The position numbers were made by a program, and so were the translations under genes. 42,682 nt of DNA from Candidatus Scalindua arabica. GTDB taxonomy: Bacteria > Planctomycetota > Brocadiia > Brocadiales > Scalinduaceae. Numbering within the stretch: the stretch's first letter is position 1; each line of letters begins with the position of its first letter. The stretch is taken from positions 1 to 42,682 of the forward strand of contig JAANXD010000044.1 in assembly GCA_018263435.1 (NCBI GenBank), in the 5' to 3' direction. A model generated the notes under the pieces. The model was given only the letters and a program-made list of their open reading frames with translations. It did not search any database and was not told the DNA's origin. Below, piece by piece: positions 20,898 to 26,479 of the stretch.

Positions 20898-21518
20898 ATG
20901 CCCGAAAAACAAATACATGCTGTCACCGGAGCTTACGGATATTCCGGCAAATACATAACACGAAGATTACTCGGTAGACGTAATAGCGTAATCACCCTGA
21001 CAAATTCTATGCATCGAAGCAACCTCTTTGGAAAGGAAGATATACTTATCAATAACATCGCATGGGCTCTGCATAAACTACCCGTATTCGCAGTGTTTGG
21101 AGATGGACAGTATCGCCTTCAACCAATCTATGTTGATGATCTTGCTGAACTTGCTGTTGAGCATGGAGAGAAGGAAGAAAACTCCATTATTAACGCAGTC
21201 GGACCGGAAACTTTCACTTACAAGGAACTCATTCAAACAATCGGCAGGATTATTGGCAAGGACAGGCCCATCATCTCTGTACATCCTACATTAGTCTACA
21301 TCGCAGGAATGATTATAAGCCAGATGGTTAATGATGTTCTTATTACGCCGGAAGAGATCGAAGGACTTATGTCCAATCTTCTCTGCATTGATTCACCCCC
21401 AACCGGTAAGACGAGACTTACAGATTGGATAGAGGAACATGCAGAATCTCTAGGCAGACAATACACCAGCGAGCTGGTAAGAAGGATAGACAGGGAAACA
21501 GAATACAAGAGTAATTAG
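20898..21518 (+). CDS. NAD(P)-binding SDR/epimerase-like protein with internal deletion
   Basis: 206 aa. The N-terminal Rossmann motif is VTGAYGYSGKYITRRLL, and the second half (LINNIAWALHKLPVFAVFGDG, YRLQPIYVDDLAELA, FTYKELIQTIGRIIGK) is that of an NAD(P)H-binding SDR usually near 290 aa. After LTNSMHRSNLFG the sequence jumps directly to KEDILINN. In relatives as I know them, about 85-90 residues lie between these, including beta-strands 3-5 and the central substrate region. The reading frame stays open, so this looks like an in-frame deletion at about 21025-21035. Catalytic activity is doubtful. Its start has no strong Shine-Dalgarno. Confidence 0.75.
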   Translation: MPEKQIHAVTGAYGYSGKYITRRLLGRRNSVITLTNSMHRSNLFGKEDILINNIAWALHKLPVFAVFGDGQYRLQPIYVDDLAELAVEHGEKEENSIINAVGPETFTYKELIQTIGRIIGKDRPIISVHPTLVYIAGMIISQMVNDVLITPEEIEGLMSNLLCIDSPPTGKTRLTDWIEEHAESLGRQYTSELVRRIDRETEYKSN

Positions 21519-22581: not shown

Positions 22582-22836
22582 TTAATAGTGATATCTTAAC
22601 TGTGCAATTAACACCTGTTCATTATGTATTTTATAAACAATCCGGTGTTCATTTGTTATCCGCCTTGACCAATAACCTGATAAGCTATGTTTTAGCGGTT
22701 CTGGTTTTCCAATCCCCTGATATTTATTCTTTTGAATATCTTTGATTAATTCATTTATCTTCTTCAGGATTTTCTTGTCAGTACGTTGCCAGTACACATA
22801 ATCTTCCCATGCATGTTCTGAGAAAACCAGTTTCAT
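22582..22836 (-). CDS. yoeB: YoeB family toxin
   Basis: 84 aa. Typical Txe/YoeB pattern: FSEHAWEDYVYWQRTDKKILKKINELIKDI, then GKPEPLKHSLSGYWSRRI and NEHRIVYKI, ending in RYHY with the catalytic His and Tyr. YoeB is a ribosome-dependent mRNA endonuclease that cuts at the A site. Its ATG overlaps the end of yefM by four bases, giving coupled translation. Convergent with dus. Confidence 0.94.
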   Translation of the reverse strand: MKLVFSEHAWEDYVYWQRTDKKILKKINELIKDIQKNKYQGIGKPEPLKHSLSGYWSRRITNEHRIVYKIHNEQVLIAQLRYHY

Positions 22837-23084
22837 TCAACCAATTTCCGTTCTTTCCCATTACCTTTTTCAAGTTCTTCGATTGATTCCAGGAGTCGTT
22901 TCGTGTTCCTGGGGCTATGTAGTAAATATGCTGTTTCATTTAATGCTTCATAGTCCTCCAATGACATCATTACAACGGCATCATGTTTTTTCCGGGTAAT
23001 AATCACAGGATCATGGTCATCGCAAACATCCTTCATTGTCTTTGCCAGGTTGCTACGTACAGATGTATAAGTAAGTGCCTTCAT
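22833..23084 (-). CDS. yefM: YefM family antitoxin
   Basis: 83 aa, normal for YefM. The N-terminal Phd/YefM DNA-binding fold is MKALTYTSVRSNLAKTMKDVCDDHDPVIITRK, then DAVVMMSLEDYEALNETAYLL, with a C-terminal region (NTKRLLESIEELEKG) that wraps the toxin. AGGAGG lies upstream of the ATG. It is expected to repress its own promoter through the TGTACA sites at 23106-23129. Confidence 0.94.
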   Translation of the reverse strand: MKALTYTSVRSNLAKTMKDVCDDHDPVIITRKKHDAVVMMSLEDYEALNETAYLLHSPRNTKRLLESIEELEKGNGKERKLVE

Positions 23085-23105
23085 TTATTAAATCCTCCTA
23101 AATAT

Positions 23106-23147
23106 TGTACATGTACGTATTGTTGTACATAACGGAATAAATGTCAA
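23106..23147 (-). promoter_or_regulatory. yefM-yoeB promoter with TGTACA operator
   Basis: On the minus strand TTGACA (23147-23142), a 17-base spacer and AACAAT (23124-23119) form a promoter. Over and just past the -10 lie TGTACA at 23106-23111, TGTACG at 23112-23117 and TGTACA at 23124-23129. Cores two and three are 12 bp apart centre to centre. TGTACA is the known core of the YefM-YoeB operator in E. coli. Confidence 0.7.
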
Positions 23148-23337
23148 ATATTTTCTTTTTAATTAGCTACGCCATAATCAATGCCATAGCTGCAGCAAAA
23201 ATTAATTTACTGCCGACAAAGAGTAGATTATAATTAAGATTTAGGTATTTTCTCATCAGTCGCAAATTACAATTACCAACAACAACTAACCATCTTTCCT
23301 GATTCTCAAGTAATAAAGCAGGCAAGGAGAAAAAAGT

Positions 23338-23526
23338 ATGACTACCAGGCTCAAGTGTAGTGACCAGGTGCCGGAAAGAATGAATGAAAAGTTACCTCGG
23401 AGAGAGTTCTTTAAGAAAAGTGGAACTGCTGTTGCATCTACCGCTGCTCTGGTTGGCTCTTTAACTGCATATAATTCTTATGCCAAAGACAAACATAAGA
23501 CAAAAAAACACCAGGCAATTTATTGA
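23338..23526 (+). CDS. Small twin-arginine signal protein
   Basis: 62 aa. PRREFFKKSGTAVASTAALV is a classic Tat signal (twin Arg followed by xFF, then a weakly hydrophobic Ala/Thr segment), ending at SYAKD. Only about 13 residues remain after likely cleavage. Such small Tat proteins are often found next to molybdo-enzyme genes, but none lies here, so it may be an orphan or a remnant. AAGGAG eight bases before the ATG at 23338 supports that start over the in-frame ATG at 23380. The last codon and stop lie in the first of two 35-bp direct repeats. Confidence 0.6.
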   Translation: MTTRLKCSDQVPERMNEKLPRREFFKKSGTAVASTAALVGSLTAYNSYAKDKHKTKKHQAIY

Positions 23527-23553
23527 ATTCGACAGCGAGCTGATTGAGAGGAA
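23519..23553. repeat. 35-bp direct repeat, copy 1 (flanks RelE/Phd module)
   Basis: Begins TTTATTGAATTCGACAGCGA and ends GAGAGGAA. It matches 24226-24260 at 33 of 35 positions in the same orientation. The unit from copy 1 to copy 2 is 707 bases and contains only the toxin-antitoxin pair. On the minus strand both copies encode NQLAVEFNKL. Confidence 0.75.
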
Positions 23554-23586
23554 TTTGGCTATAATTATGACATAACACGACTGATT

Positions 23587-23832
23587 CTATTCCGCCAGAT
23601 CCTCAATCTTAACGCCTTTGCCCTTGCGAATACTTCCTCTGGCAGATTCTATCCTTTGTAAAAAACGAGGGTCGTTTTCAAGCCTGTAATCAAACCAGTC
23701 TTCTTCAGAGTGAAAACCAATCAAGACTCCCGCAGGTTTACCATGACGTGTTATAATAATCTCTTTTTTCTCAGCACTGTGCAAATACTCAGAAAGATTA
23801 TCCTTTACTTTCGAAAGTGCAACTTGTTTCAT
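23587..23832 (-). CDS. Phd/YefM family antitoxin
   Basis: 81 aa from the ATG at 23832, which has AGGAG seven bases upstream. N-terminal Phd fold: MKQVALSKVKDNLSEYLHSA, then EIIITRHGKPAGVLIGF. The C-terminal half (NDPRFLQRIESARGSIRKGKG, EDLAE) is the toxin-binding tail. Here the antitoxin is the second gene: its start overlaps the toxin stop by four bases, so its translation depends on that of the toxin. This is the reverse of the usual order. Confidence 0.88.
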   Translation of the reverse strand: MKQVALSKVKDNLSEYLHSAEKKEIIITRHGKPAGVLIGFHSEEDWFDYRLENDPRFLQRIESARGSIRKGKGVKIEDLAE

Positions 23833-24122
23833 CGTTTTTCTCCTTCTTTCCCCAGCCATTCGGATGCCTTTGATTTAGGGATAATAGCCAATATTTCTAC
23901 AGAAGATTGAGTCACATCATAAAAGATTCTAAATTCATTCACGCGTAATCGAAATTGAGGACGGCTAATCCCTCTTAATCGTTTAATTCGGCTTTTACTT
24001 GTCTTTTCAGGTTTATACCTTAGATGCTTTTCAATGTCATCTCTTATGATTGAGCGGTCCCGTGCTTTTAAACGTTTGAAATCACGAACAGCTTCCGGGG
24101 CAAAAACAACTTCATATTTCAT
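23829..24122 (-). CDS. RelE/ParE family toxin
   Basis: 97 aa. RelE-fold pattern: YEVVFAPEAVRDFKRLKARDRSIIRDDI, then RIKRLRG, PQFRLRVNEFRIFYDV and VEILAIIPKSKA. The Arg-rich strand with RLRVNEFRI is typical of RelE-type ribosome-dependent mRNases; the C-terminal catalytic residue is not certain. It is the first gene of its operon. The promoter and a 25-bp palindrome reach its start codon (24121-24160), and no Shine-Dalgarno is seen. Confidence 0.86.
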   Translation of the reverse strand: MKYEVVFAPEAVRDFKRLKARDRSIIRDDIEKHLRYKPEKTSKSRIKRLRGISRPQFRLRVNEFRIFYDVTQSSVEILAIIPKSKASEWLGKEGEKR

Positions 24123-24160
24123 TCTGGCTAGAGTATAGCCAGAATTTATAAACTTGTCAA
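24121..24160 (-). promoter_or_regulatory. Toxin-antitoxin promoter with palindromic operator, near-leaderless
   Basis: On the minus strand TTGACA (24160-24155), a 17-base spacer and TATACT (24137-24132). A perfect palindrome, ATTCTGGCTA-n5-TAGCCAGAAT (24121-24145), covers the -10 and reaches into the toxin ATG (24122-24120). Only nine bases separate the -10 from the ATG, so the mRNA should start about three bases before AUG. The palindrome is the likely antitoxin operator. Confidence 0.7.
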
Positions 24161-24225
24161 TAGATTAGATTTGCCTGCCCACCGTCTTACTTGGCGGGCC
24201 CCTCTTCTTTCTTATCTTTAGACAG

Positions 24226-24260
24226 TTTATTAAATTCGACAGCGAGCTGATTGACAGGAA
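24226..24260. repeat. 35-bp direct repeat, copy 2
   Basis: Begins TTTATTAAATTCGACAGCGA and ends GACAGGAA; partner of 23519-23553. On the minus strand it reads PVNQLAVEFNKL and continues open as SKDKKEEGPAK, so it may be the 3' remnant of a gene. Confidence 0.75.
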
Positions 24261-24382
24261 CCTGATTAACATTAACCACACCCGTCGGGCTGGAAGGAAT
24301 TGAGGAATTACAAATAACCAATAACATTTAACGAATAACTCAGCCTTTTATTAAAGGCTGACCTGGTGGATTGAAGCATTGG

Positions 24383-24847
24383 TCATCTTGAAAGATTTAC
24401 CTTTCTTCTCTTCACTATTTCTCTTGTTATTAACTTGATGCATGCTTCAGTATCTTTTTTAATTTCGTGTTCCCAAAGACGAATTACAACCCAACCCTCT
24501 TTTCTTAATATTTTATTGGTTTTAGAATCTCTATGAATGTTGCCTTCAATCTTCTTGATCCAATATTTTCTGTTACTTTTTATTTTCTTCTTCTTTTTCT
24601 TCCAATTAAAACCATGCCAAAATTCTCCATCAACAAATATTGCAATCTTATTCTTTTTTATTGATATATCCGGGCAACCTAATATATTTTTGTTATTTTT
24701 TCGATACCTAATACCTTTGTCCCAAAGTCGTTTTCTAAGTAAAATCTCAGCTTTTGTATCAGTTGCTTTTATTTTGCCCATTAACTTCGAGCGTTCTTCG
24801 CTTGTTTCAACGACCTTTGATAACCTTATAAAAATCTTTGTTACCAA
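24383..24847 (-). CDS. vsr: Very short patch repair endonuclease (Vsr)
   Basis: About 154 aa. Vsr pattern: ERSKLMGKIKATDTKAEILLRKRLW, GIRYRKN, ILGCPDISI with the catalytic Asp, IAIFVDGEFWHG with the conserved His, and WVVIRLWEHEI. Vsr nicks next to the T of T:G mismatches left by deamination of 5-methylcytosine, so it normally travels with a C5 methyltransferase, as here. The start is a TTG at 24847; the next in-frame ATG (24781) would remove the conserved ERSKL. A lysine-rich insertion (KKKKKKIKS) follows the FWHG motif where E. coli Vsr has zinc ligands. Confidence 0.9.
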   Translation of the reverse strand: MVTKIFIRLSKVVETSEERSKLMGKIKATDTKAEILLRKRLWDKGIRYRKNNKNILGCPDISIKKNKIAIFVDGEFWHGFNWKKKKKKIKSNRKYWIKKIEGNIHRDSKTNKILRKEGWVVIRLWEHEIKKDTEACIKLITREIVKRRKVNLSR

Positions 24848-24956
24848 TTAGATATTCAACTAACTTTTTTGGAACAACATTTCGGCTCGTTGCGTCTATT
24901 CGTAATAGTTCTTTTCTAAATATATCCAGTATAGGCTTGTATTTTTGTAGTAATTA
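24807..24956 (-). pseudogene. Orphan coding remnant overlapping the vsr start
   Basis: The minus frame opens just after a stop and reads LLQKYKPILDIFRKELLRID followed by ATSRNVVPKKLVEYLIGNKD to a stop inside the vsr start region. No start codon of the usual kinds is present near its beginning. It reads like a genuine protein C-terminus, possibly of another restriction-modification gene that lost its 5' part. I do not recognise the family. Confidence 0.3.
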
Positions 24957-24977
24957 TTCCATCAAATCAACTTTGTG

Positions 24978-25484
24978 CTAGTAGCCTATTAATAAAATAC
25001 CTTTTAAAGGTAATTGTAATCTATTGCTTATATACAAAGTTTCAAGAAAGGTATATATTTTCGAAAAATCATCAGACCCTCGATAATCATTTCTAACGGC
25101 AATTATTAGATATTCAACCTTAAACATCATACAAGCTTGAAAAATATCTTTTAAGAATTGATTGTTATCAACAGCCCTACCTGCTTCTACTTCAATAACA
25201 ATTTTTCCATCGTTACTAATAGCATCAGCGTTAAAACACTTGTCTATACCATTGTTGATCCCAAACAACACAGGTACGTTTATCTTTTTATCCTTAGTTT
25301 TTCCTGTTTCTACATTAAAACCGATTTCTTCTAAACCTAAGTGTAATAGTTTCAATACTTCATTACTTGAATGAGTATGCTTTTCAGAAGAAATATCGTC
25401 TTCTACAGATTTAAAGCATTCTATAATAGAATTTATTTTTTCTGTAATACCATGTGAACGTGGAAAAAACTGGAATCTAATCAT
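24978..25484 (-). CDS. Probable restriction endonuclease of the local R-M system
   Basis: 168 aa. The centre reads DKCFNADAISNDGKIVIEVE followed by AGRAVDNNQFLKDIFQACMM, which fits a PD-(D/E)xK nuclease core (Asp, strand, ExE), followed by VEYLIIAVRNDY and LQLPLKGILLIGY. I know proteins with this pattern as uncharacterised neighbours of DNA methyltransferases. It overlaps the preceding small gene by eight bases. The EVE in place of ExK is an acceptable variant in the superfamily. Its specificity cannot be read. Confidence 0.55.
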   Translation of the reverse strand: MIRFQFFPRSHGITEKINSIIECFKSVEDDISSEKHTHSSNEVLKLLHLGLEEIGFNVETGKTKDKKINVPVLFGINNGIDKCFNADAISNDGKIVIEVEAGRAVDNNQFLKDIFQACMMFKVEYLIIAVRNDYRGSDDFSKIYTFLETLYISNRLQLPLKGILLIGY

Positions 25485-25686
25485 TATATTTTTCCTTCAA
25501 CCAACATAAGAGTACTTCAAAATCAGGGAATTCATAATCAACACTTCCATTATCATTCGATATGTAACTCCCACCATCAGGATAACATCTCAGAAATAAG
25601 TTTTCTCCTGCTTCTGTTTTGTCCAAATTCTCTAATAATTCAACAAATTCTTTAACTGATACTTGACTTAAGTCTGTTTTTCTCAT
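25477..25686 (-). CDS. Small acidic hypothetical protein in R-M locus
   Basis: 69 aa, acidic, not recognised (SVKEFVELLENLDKTEAGEN, DYEFPDFEVLLCWLKEKY). No helix-turn-helix is evident, so it is not obviously a controller protein. Its end overlaps the nuclease gene by eight bases and it lies 23 bases after the methyltransferase remnant, so all appear to have been one operon. Confidence 0.6.
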   Translation of the reverse strand: MRKTDLSQVSVKEFVELLENLDKTEAGENLFLRCYPDGGSYISNDNGSVDYEFPDFEVLLCWLKEKYND

Positions 25687-25709
25687 TATATATCCTTTTT
25701 ACTTTTAGA

Positions 25710-26479
25710 TTAATAGGCATGTCTCCCTCCTGCCTGAATGGTAAAAGATGCTTCGTCCCAACCTCTAACTCGATTTCTAGACATGTATATACTGGAAAAC
25801 CCACCGTTCATATATTCATGATTAGGGACTTTGCATTTTGAACCATTGGTGTAATTGTAATTCTTCGCAGGAATGGCTGAATCTTTCAAATCACCAATTG
25901 CCTTCTCAAGAATGATAATATTAGGATAGCCCTTTGGAAATGAAAAATTTATTTTCAAGTCCCGTCTGAACCCAATAAATATAACTCTTTTTCTGTCTTG
26001 AGGATTTTGTAATCTTTTGCGTTCAAAAGTTGGAAATACAAATCATAACCTTGTCCAGCATTTCTAAGAAGGTTTTTTATGTTTGTAAGTGCTTCCCTGT
26101 GCCGTGGAAGTAACATTCCTGACACATTTTCTGCTAGAAAAAATAAAGGCTGTTTCACTTCTAGCAATCTCACAAAATCATAAAAAAGTTGTCCCCTCTT
26201 GTCGTTTATTCCTCTTAATGCCCCAGCTTCACTCCAGCTTTGACGGGGAGGACCTCCTATTACTCCATCGCAGTTGGGAATTTCGTTTACATTAATGTCA
26301 GTAATACTTTTTTTGTCAAGGGTTGTTCTAGGATGATTCTTCTCATAAGTTTCCCATATCTCTTTGTCAAACTCATTTGCCCAGATAATATCAAACCCTG
26401 CTTTTGAAAAGCCTAAATCTAACCCACCTGCTCCAGCAAATAAAGATACTACTTTCATTTTTCTTTTAGATTTAGTCAT
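25710..26479 (-). pseudogene. C5 cytosine DNA methyltransferase, inactivated
   Basis: Motif I is VVSLFAGAGGLDLGFSKAGF and the target-base loop motifs follow, but three defects are seen. First, motif IV reads GGPPRQSW: the catalytic Cys is Arg (CGT at 26243-26245, one T-to-C change from TGT). Second, the frame breaks near 26002; the +1 frame restores PQDRKRVIFIGFRRDLKINF (motif VIII region), as if one C were lost from CCC. Third, the protein stops at IQAGGRHAY, where relatives continue with motifs IX and X, so about 80-100 residues are gone. The two pieces (about 174 and 82 aa) are otherwise well preserved, which suggests recent decay. Confidence 0.88.

Follow-up and report, generated by a model that had tools for sequence, protein, structure and literature searches.

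A palindrome holding the −10 box adjoins the toxin start codon in a toxin-first family of type II toxin–antitoxin modules

The stretch of DNA that we analysed (the window, 42,682 nucleotides) is a contig of Candidatus Scalindua arabica whose minus strand carries a toxin gene followed by its antitoxin gene, with a palindrome that contains the −10 box and runs into the toxin start codon. As judged by sequence comparison, the presence of this element at the toxin start is a family trait. We consider it likely that the locus is a mobile type II module that joins the autoregulatory operator, the −10 box, the transcription start site and a near-leaderless AUG in one unit. The coordinates of the features are given in Table 1.

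The initial annotation of this locus was essentially right. The reversed gene order that it described holds, the toxin (24122..23829) preceding the antitoxin (23832..23587) with a 4-nt overlap (ATGA) between the two genes, as does the position of its promoter, TTGACA-17-TATACT, which ends exactly 9 nt before the toxin ATG. The two hexamers, spaced by 17 nt, match the consensus at 11 of 12 positions and form the top promoter-like site within 23100-25000; promoter matches are by themselves not above chance, since nine such sites were found in this interval versus 6.2 ± 2.7 in shuffled sequences. We also confirmed that the toxin lacks a Shine-Dalgarno sequence (SD) and that the antitoxin has a good one, AAGGAG at 23845..23840. 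The palindrome had been described as perfect over 25 bp, which is incorrect: it is made of two arms of 10 bp (24121-24130 and 24136-24145), 100% complementary, and a perfect palindrome is ruled out by the 5-nt centre with its one mismatched pair. It does cover the −10 box, as proposed, but of the first bases of the gene it includes no more than the A and T of the start codon. Elsewhere in the window, no match to the operator was found at up to three mismatches, and none is expected from shuffled sequences. Transcription usually starts 7 nt after the −10 box, and the predicted start in Table 1 follows this geometry. A 16-nt look-alike within the toxin gene (23884-23899) was considered as an internal half-operator or promoter and rejected, as the Leu-Ala-Ile codons of the relatives differ at this place (GCT in 6 of 80).

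Table 1. Features of the toxin–antitoxin locus and its flanks in the window
Feature	Position	Strand	Basis or remark
−35 hexamer TTGACA	24155..24160	-	promoter-like site scan of the window
−10 hexamer TATACT	24132..24137	-	within the palindrome; promoter-like site scan
Candidate operator ATTCTGGCTA-TACTC-TAGCCAGAAT	24121..24145	.	palindrome; ends with the A and T of the toxin ATG
Predicted transcription start A24125, 7 nt past the −10, with 3-nt leader AGA	24123..24125	-	predicted from geometry
Toxin, 97 aa, ParE/RelE superfamily (PF05016)	23829..24122	-	Pfam profile match
Antitoxin Shine-Dalgarno AAGGAG	23840..23845	-	within the toxin gene, with 7 nt to the antitoxin ATG
Antitoxin, 81 aa, Phd/YefM family (PF02604)	23587..23832	-	Pfam profile match
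Direct repeat, upstream copy, 55 nt	24220..24274	+	82% identical to the downstream copy
Direct repeat, downstream copy, 55 nt	23513..23567	+	82% identical to the upstream copy

Both proteins score above the cut-offs of their Pfam profiles, the toxin with 26.9 bits (cut-off 23) and the antitoxin with 43.7 bits (cut-off 29.8), the latter also matching TIGR01552. Two adjacent genes with matches to PF05016 and PF02604 would by these family assignments form a type II toxin–antitoxin pair. The AlphaFold2 model of the toxin (pLDDT 95) has a RelE-like fold, with Z-scores of 12.5 for T. thermophilus RelE, tied with M. tuberculosis RelE2 (12.4) and RelE1 (12.3), and of 11.1 for E. coli RelE; identity to the two M. 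tuberculosis proteins in the fold alignments is 22-26%, and the toxin falls below the cut-off of the NCBIfam RelE_StbE model. We looked for the catalytic basic residues of the RelE active site, which would point to a ribonuclease rather than a ParE-type gyrase inhibitor. In an alignment of 52 rows, R65, which aligns with R61 of E. coli RelE, is invariant and R58, R60 and K83 are conserved in at least 90%, with no clear match for the active-site residues R81 and Y87. The antitoxin model (pLDDT 85.5, pTM 0.51) matches M. tuberculosis RelB1 and RelB2, Phd and YefM; among solved structures, the M. tuberculosis antitoxins are its best matches both by sequence and by fold.

Relatives were sought through the toxin protein and not through the DNA. 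Within the window's phylum, the toxin has a match at E ≤ 1e-10 in 16 of 392 genomes, a count that takes in the window's own genome. Scans of genome contigs and of viral contigs with the single window toxin returned no relative, whereas alignment-based scans did find some: across 84,980 species, one genome per species, a single peptide motif yielded 175 relatives, and we retained the best 80 of them. Together with one viral contig and ten loci from whole genomes (L001, the window itself, L004 and L007-L014), these make 91 loci, or 90 after removal of one duplicate. L005 and L006 are the same as L046 and L097 and enter the count once, and the distant L002, L003 and L015-L018 stand outside the set. 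Leaving out L010, L014 and L021, 87 loci have a start and at least 45 nt of upstream DNA. Their GC content ranges from 35% to 70%, and as they are related by descent, counts over loci are not counts of independent events. L002 and L003, on contigs C78 and C3 of the window's own genome, encode further RelE-like toxins, interrupted by stops and with small genes directly downstream. The element-bearing loci span at least 12 named phyla, namely Pseudomonadota, Nitrospirota, Planctomycetota, Rokuibacteriota, Myxococcota, Acidobacteriota, Chloroflexota, Fidelibacterota, Auribacterota, Verrucomicrobiota, Omnitrophota and Armatimonadota, where single labels may be wrong because most loci come from metagenome bins. 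The element is present in four named strains of Bradyrhizobium (L073, L079, L083 and L092).

The element, TCTGGCTAnnnTnTRGCCAGA, is found with at most four mismatches in 83 of the 87 loci (none in 50, one in 24), and its right end adjoins the start codon in 78 of these 83 and lies 1 nt off in five. The best-scoring −10 hexamer ends 9 nt before the toxin start in 75 of the 87; L031, L032, L090 and L098, counted at 7 nt, have an equally good hexamer at 9 nt. The TTG of the −35 hexamer is kept at the same position (T in 72, T in 65 and G in 42 of 87), and so is A-G-A at −3 to −1 (A in 79, G in 75 and A in 81 of 84). Mean pairwise identity is 0.747 over −23 to −1 versus 0.603 over toxin coding positions +34 to +273, and the non-coding 23-mer is therefore held more tightly than the toxin gene. 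Identity is 0.26-0.27 both for the promoter spacer (−32 to −24) and for −60 to −40; the sequence just outside the element is effectively random (26% pairwise). Four of the 87 loci miss the element, L011 (5 mismatches), L012, L013 and L019, the last of which is the closest relative of the window (toxin 69% identical) yet lacks the operator. Fourteen of 84 loci have an additional start codon in frame, 9 nt upstream.

Because the last base of the operator touches the start codon, the toxin message should begin at about the coding start, without a Shine-Dalgarno sequence. Tetramers of the SD type between −20 and −5 are present before none of the 87 toxins and before 40 of 83 antitoxins, compared with 227 of 1740 random 16-mers of the same loci and 27 of 102 flanking ORFs 150 aa or longer; when loci are collapsed into clusters at 75% identity, the counts are 0 of 54 for toxins versus 32 of 51 for antitoxins. 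Toxins start with ATG in 79 of 83 loci versus 61 of 83 for the antitoxins of the same loci (discordant loci, 22 to 4). Leaderless messages mapped in Sinorhizobium meliloti, 171 in total, are all reported to start with AUG (PMC3616915), and for leaderless genes of Burkholderia cenocepacia a TA-rich promoter motif immediately upstream is described as replacing the SD (PMC4603805). The comparison thus strongly supports the near-leaderless toxin message put forward in the initial annotation, which we infer from the −10 geometry, the absence of SD and the conservation.

A Phd-like antitoxin gene lies just downstream of the toxin in 83 of the 87 loci, only the downstream side having been examined. 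Of these 83 antitoxin genes, 53 share the usual 4-nt overlap with the toxin stop (ATGA, GTGA or TTGA), and 13 begin ~20 nt deeper within the toxin gene. Given these overlapping starts, antitoxin translation may be partly coupled to that of the toxin, and this possible coupling weakens a simple reading of low toxin and high antitoxin translation from a reversed gene order. That reading is plausible, but about half of the antitoxins lack an SD 4-mer.

For genome-wide scans we used a stricter pattern of the element, GGCTANNNTNTRGCCAGAATG, with the same pattern read backward as a control. It occurs once each in 17 of 20 host genomes, in all 17 inside the toxin locus (control, 0). Among 392 genomes of the window's phylum, three have it, always at the toxin start (control, 1 match), and among 398 genomes of the phylum to which the Bradyrhizobium seed belongs, one has it, namely the seed itself. 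From these single in-locus occurrences we conclude that the site is private to the module.

Searching two further phyla with the protein profile, we found matches in 24 of 295 genomes of one and in 14 of 297 of the other. The element stands at the start codon in 22 of the 26 strong new matches (E < 1e-25), and in 13 of the 17 whose toxin is less than 98% identical to any used before. The four strong matches without the operator at the start codon are L131, which has none, and L138, L153 and L157, which have changed or shifted versions. The 16 weak matches include one contig-edge fragment; in the other 15, nothing closer than 7 mismatches is found within −150 to +60, and most have instead a Phd-like motif upstream of the toxin. 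The element thus marks this toxin clade. Four divergent toxin-first loci with a different or changed operator (L138, L157, L145 and L148) display a −35 hexamer, 17 nt, a −10-like hexamer, 6 nt and GTG, and their messages are possibly fully leaderless, starting at GUG. These loci, picked post hoc and two of them with weak hexamers, suggest that the leaderless design outlives the operator sequence.

In the mechanism that we propose for this clade, one 23-bp element, which holds the −10 box and ends with its right arm at the start codon, would also act as the operator. RNA polymerase would start 1-3 nt before the AUG (5'-AGAAUG...), yielding a practically leaderless, SD-free toxin message from which the toxin would be translated by start-codon-first (leaderless) initiation, and the antitoxin by use of its own SD, by re-initiation at the overlapping ATGA, or by both. 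Either the free antitoxin or its complex with the toxin would bind the palindrome via the Phd-type domain of the antitoxin and thereby block the −10 box and the start site. This binding step is drawn from the antitoxin fold and general type II practice, and autoregulation via the palindrome is very likely given the Phd/YefM fold and the conservation. In a message reading through from upstream genes, the palindrome would form a hairpin whose stem takes in the A and U of the AUG, and a free start codon would come only from the module's own promoter. For the window, this hairpin is predicted at −20.9 kcal/mol versus a shuffled mean of −9.5 (z −4.5), with no shuffle reaching this value, and the message predicted from the module's own promoter is unstructured over its first 13 nt. 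The probable effect would be a tight, host-independent control with a modest toxin output.

The fixed geometry might have been selected for transcription only, the short leader being a by-product with no effect on the toxin:antitoxin ratio. We regard this as possible but not as the probable account. An operator that must overlap both the −10 box and the start site could by itself fix the 9-nt spacing, and operators centred on the −10 are given as usual for mycobacterial toxin–antitoxin systems (PMC9477884), yet an operator over the −10 need not stop at the ATG, and this one touches the start in 78 of 83 loci. Most conserved columns do lie in the symmetric part of the element; the ATG bias of the toxin starts is, however, what leaderless initiation would favour, and the four toxin-first cousins, with the caveat of their post hoc choice and two weak hexamers, place a −10-like hexamer 6 nt before GTG. 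It is rather unlikely that the palindrome acts mainly as RNA, the read-through hairpin hiding the toxin AUG. The hairpin is strongly predicted in the window and in one relative and more weakly in another (z −1.5), but any operator palindrome folds as RNA, and an RNA element does not explain why the −10 and −35 are conserved. Imperfect pairs are mostly of the G-U type (71 cells, versus 8 of A-C, over 84 loci and 10 pairs); since most G-U cells fall at three pairs that may be fixed otherwise (by the −10 box, the start codon and the 5' AGA), we do not claim selection at the RNA level.

That the message really starts further upstream, with an ordinary leader and promoter hexamers due to chance, is very unlikely. 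Promoter-like matches are indeed common in AT-rich DNA, as the nine found where 6.2 were expected illustrate, but the −10 and −35 positions are conserved in GC-rich hosts while the spacer is random, no toxin of the 87 is preceded by an SD 4-mer and no conservation is seen upstream of −40. We find it hardly credible that the upstream DNA is alike only through a recent spread of the modules: the toxin tree does mix phyla, but the coding DNA has diverged to 60% identity and the spacer to random, and the 23-bp element is still at 75%.

If the start is near-leaderless as predicted, the nature of the toxin may bear on why it is kept. E. coli RelE cuts mRNA in the ribosomal A site. M. tuberculosis RelE1 is described as cutting 16S rRNA beside the anti-SD, and RelE2 as probably doing so (PMC12620021). 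By analogy with these two neighbours, similar in toxin fold and in antitoxin, the toxin could attack the anti-SD end of 16S rRNA, in which case its SD-free message would stay translatable on cut ribosomes and the SD-dependent antitoxin message would not, a proposal that we hold to be improbable; for E. coli MazF, a related proposal has been disputed (PMC12274833). If true, anti-SD cutting would provide a built-in feed-forward switch, in which cut ribosomes go on making toxin and not antitoxin, and would be the reason why the leaderless start is kept in many phyla.

The toxin tree has 30 changes of phylum label over 13 groups (minimum 12, shuffled mean 47.6), and because it mixes phyla, transfer is likely. 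One IMG/VR contig carries a relative in the alignment-based viral scan; no match was found in plasmids for the window toxin, in plasmids and phages for a Bradyrhizobium toxin, or in PADLOC for toxin or antitoxin. Direct repeats bracket the module in 14 of 72 loci (among them the window, L020, L023, L052, L086 and L097) versus 8 of 138 pairs of control windows, which were somewhat smaller. They often begin within 65 nt of the antitoxin stop, and their length and sequence vary among loci, which hints at insertion of the module with duplication of flanking DNA.

The neighbourhood in the window holds other genes of interest. A second pair, yefM-yoeB (22582-23084, minus strand), lies ~500 bp from the module and shares with it a Phd/YefM antitoxin and a RelE-superfamily toxin, but is antitoxin-first and has a toxin of the YoeB family; autoregulation is known in the yefM-yoeB family. 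An epimerase ORF (20898-21518, plus strand) looks internally deleted, as a 343-aa open frame from a congener (G390) aligns to it as two separate pieces. Upstream of the module, the region 24383-26479 (minus strand) encodes a Vsr-like nuclease and a short C5-methylase ORF (174 aa, covering only the first half of the profile), which suggests a decayed restriction-modification locus.

In M. tuberculosis RelBE1 and RelBE2, the antitoxin gene comes first, as in the naming RelB-RelE, whereas the module described here is toxin-first. These two systems (PDB 9G12, 3G5O; PMC12620021) are the nearest solved relatives of both proteins, tied on the toxin side with T. thermophilus RelE. Toxins of PF05016 are listed as antitoxin-first in Table 1 of PMC11980606, an order that the window module does not follow. 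Other modules with RelE-superfamily toxins, higBA, mqsRA, brnTA and relSI, are likewise toxin-first (PMC13284704, PMC11980606), but differ from the present one in their toxin and antitoxin families; relSI, unlike the module here, is described without an upstream inverted repeat (PMC13284704), and mqsA is reported to have promoters of its own (PMC6918082). Leaderless messages are listed for 32 of 37 toxin–antitoxin pairs of M. tuberculosis, where they make up about a quarter of all genes and occur in many toxin–antitoxin families (PMC3898074). By comparison, in the present family a single clade would keep the trait in many phyla, with the toxin as the predicted leaderless gene. Leaderless toxin–antitoxin messages, in M. 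tuberculosis, and toxin-first RelE-type modules are thus already known; our search of the open-licence literature found no account of this module or of an operator touching the start codon of a toxin gene in a toxin–antitoxin system.

If the 5' end is as predicted, the operator, the core promoter, the transcription start and the start codon would be a single element kept across many phyla, and the toxin rather than the antitoxin would be the leaderless gene. This bears on how toxin-first modules avoid an excess of toxin and on whether a selfish module can function in any host through initiation that does not depend on an SD. The module would also allow one to test directly if leaderless messages are spared by toxins that cut the anti-SD.
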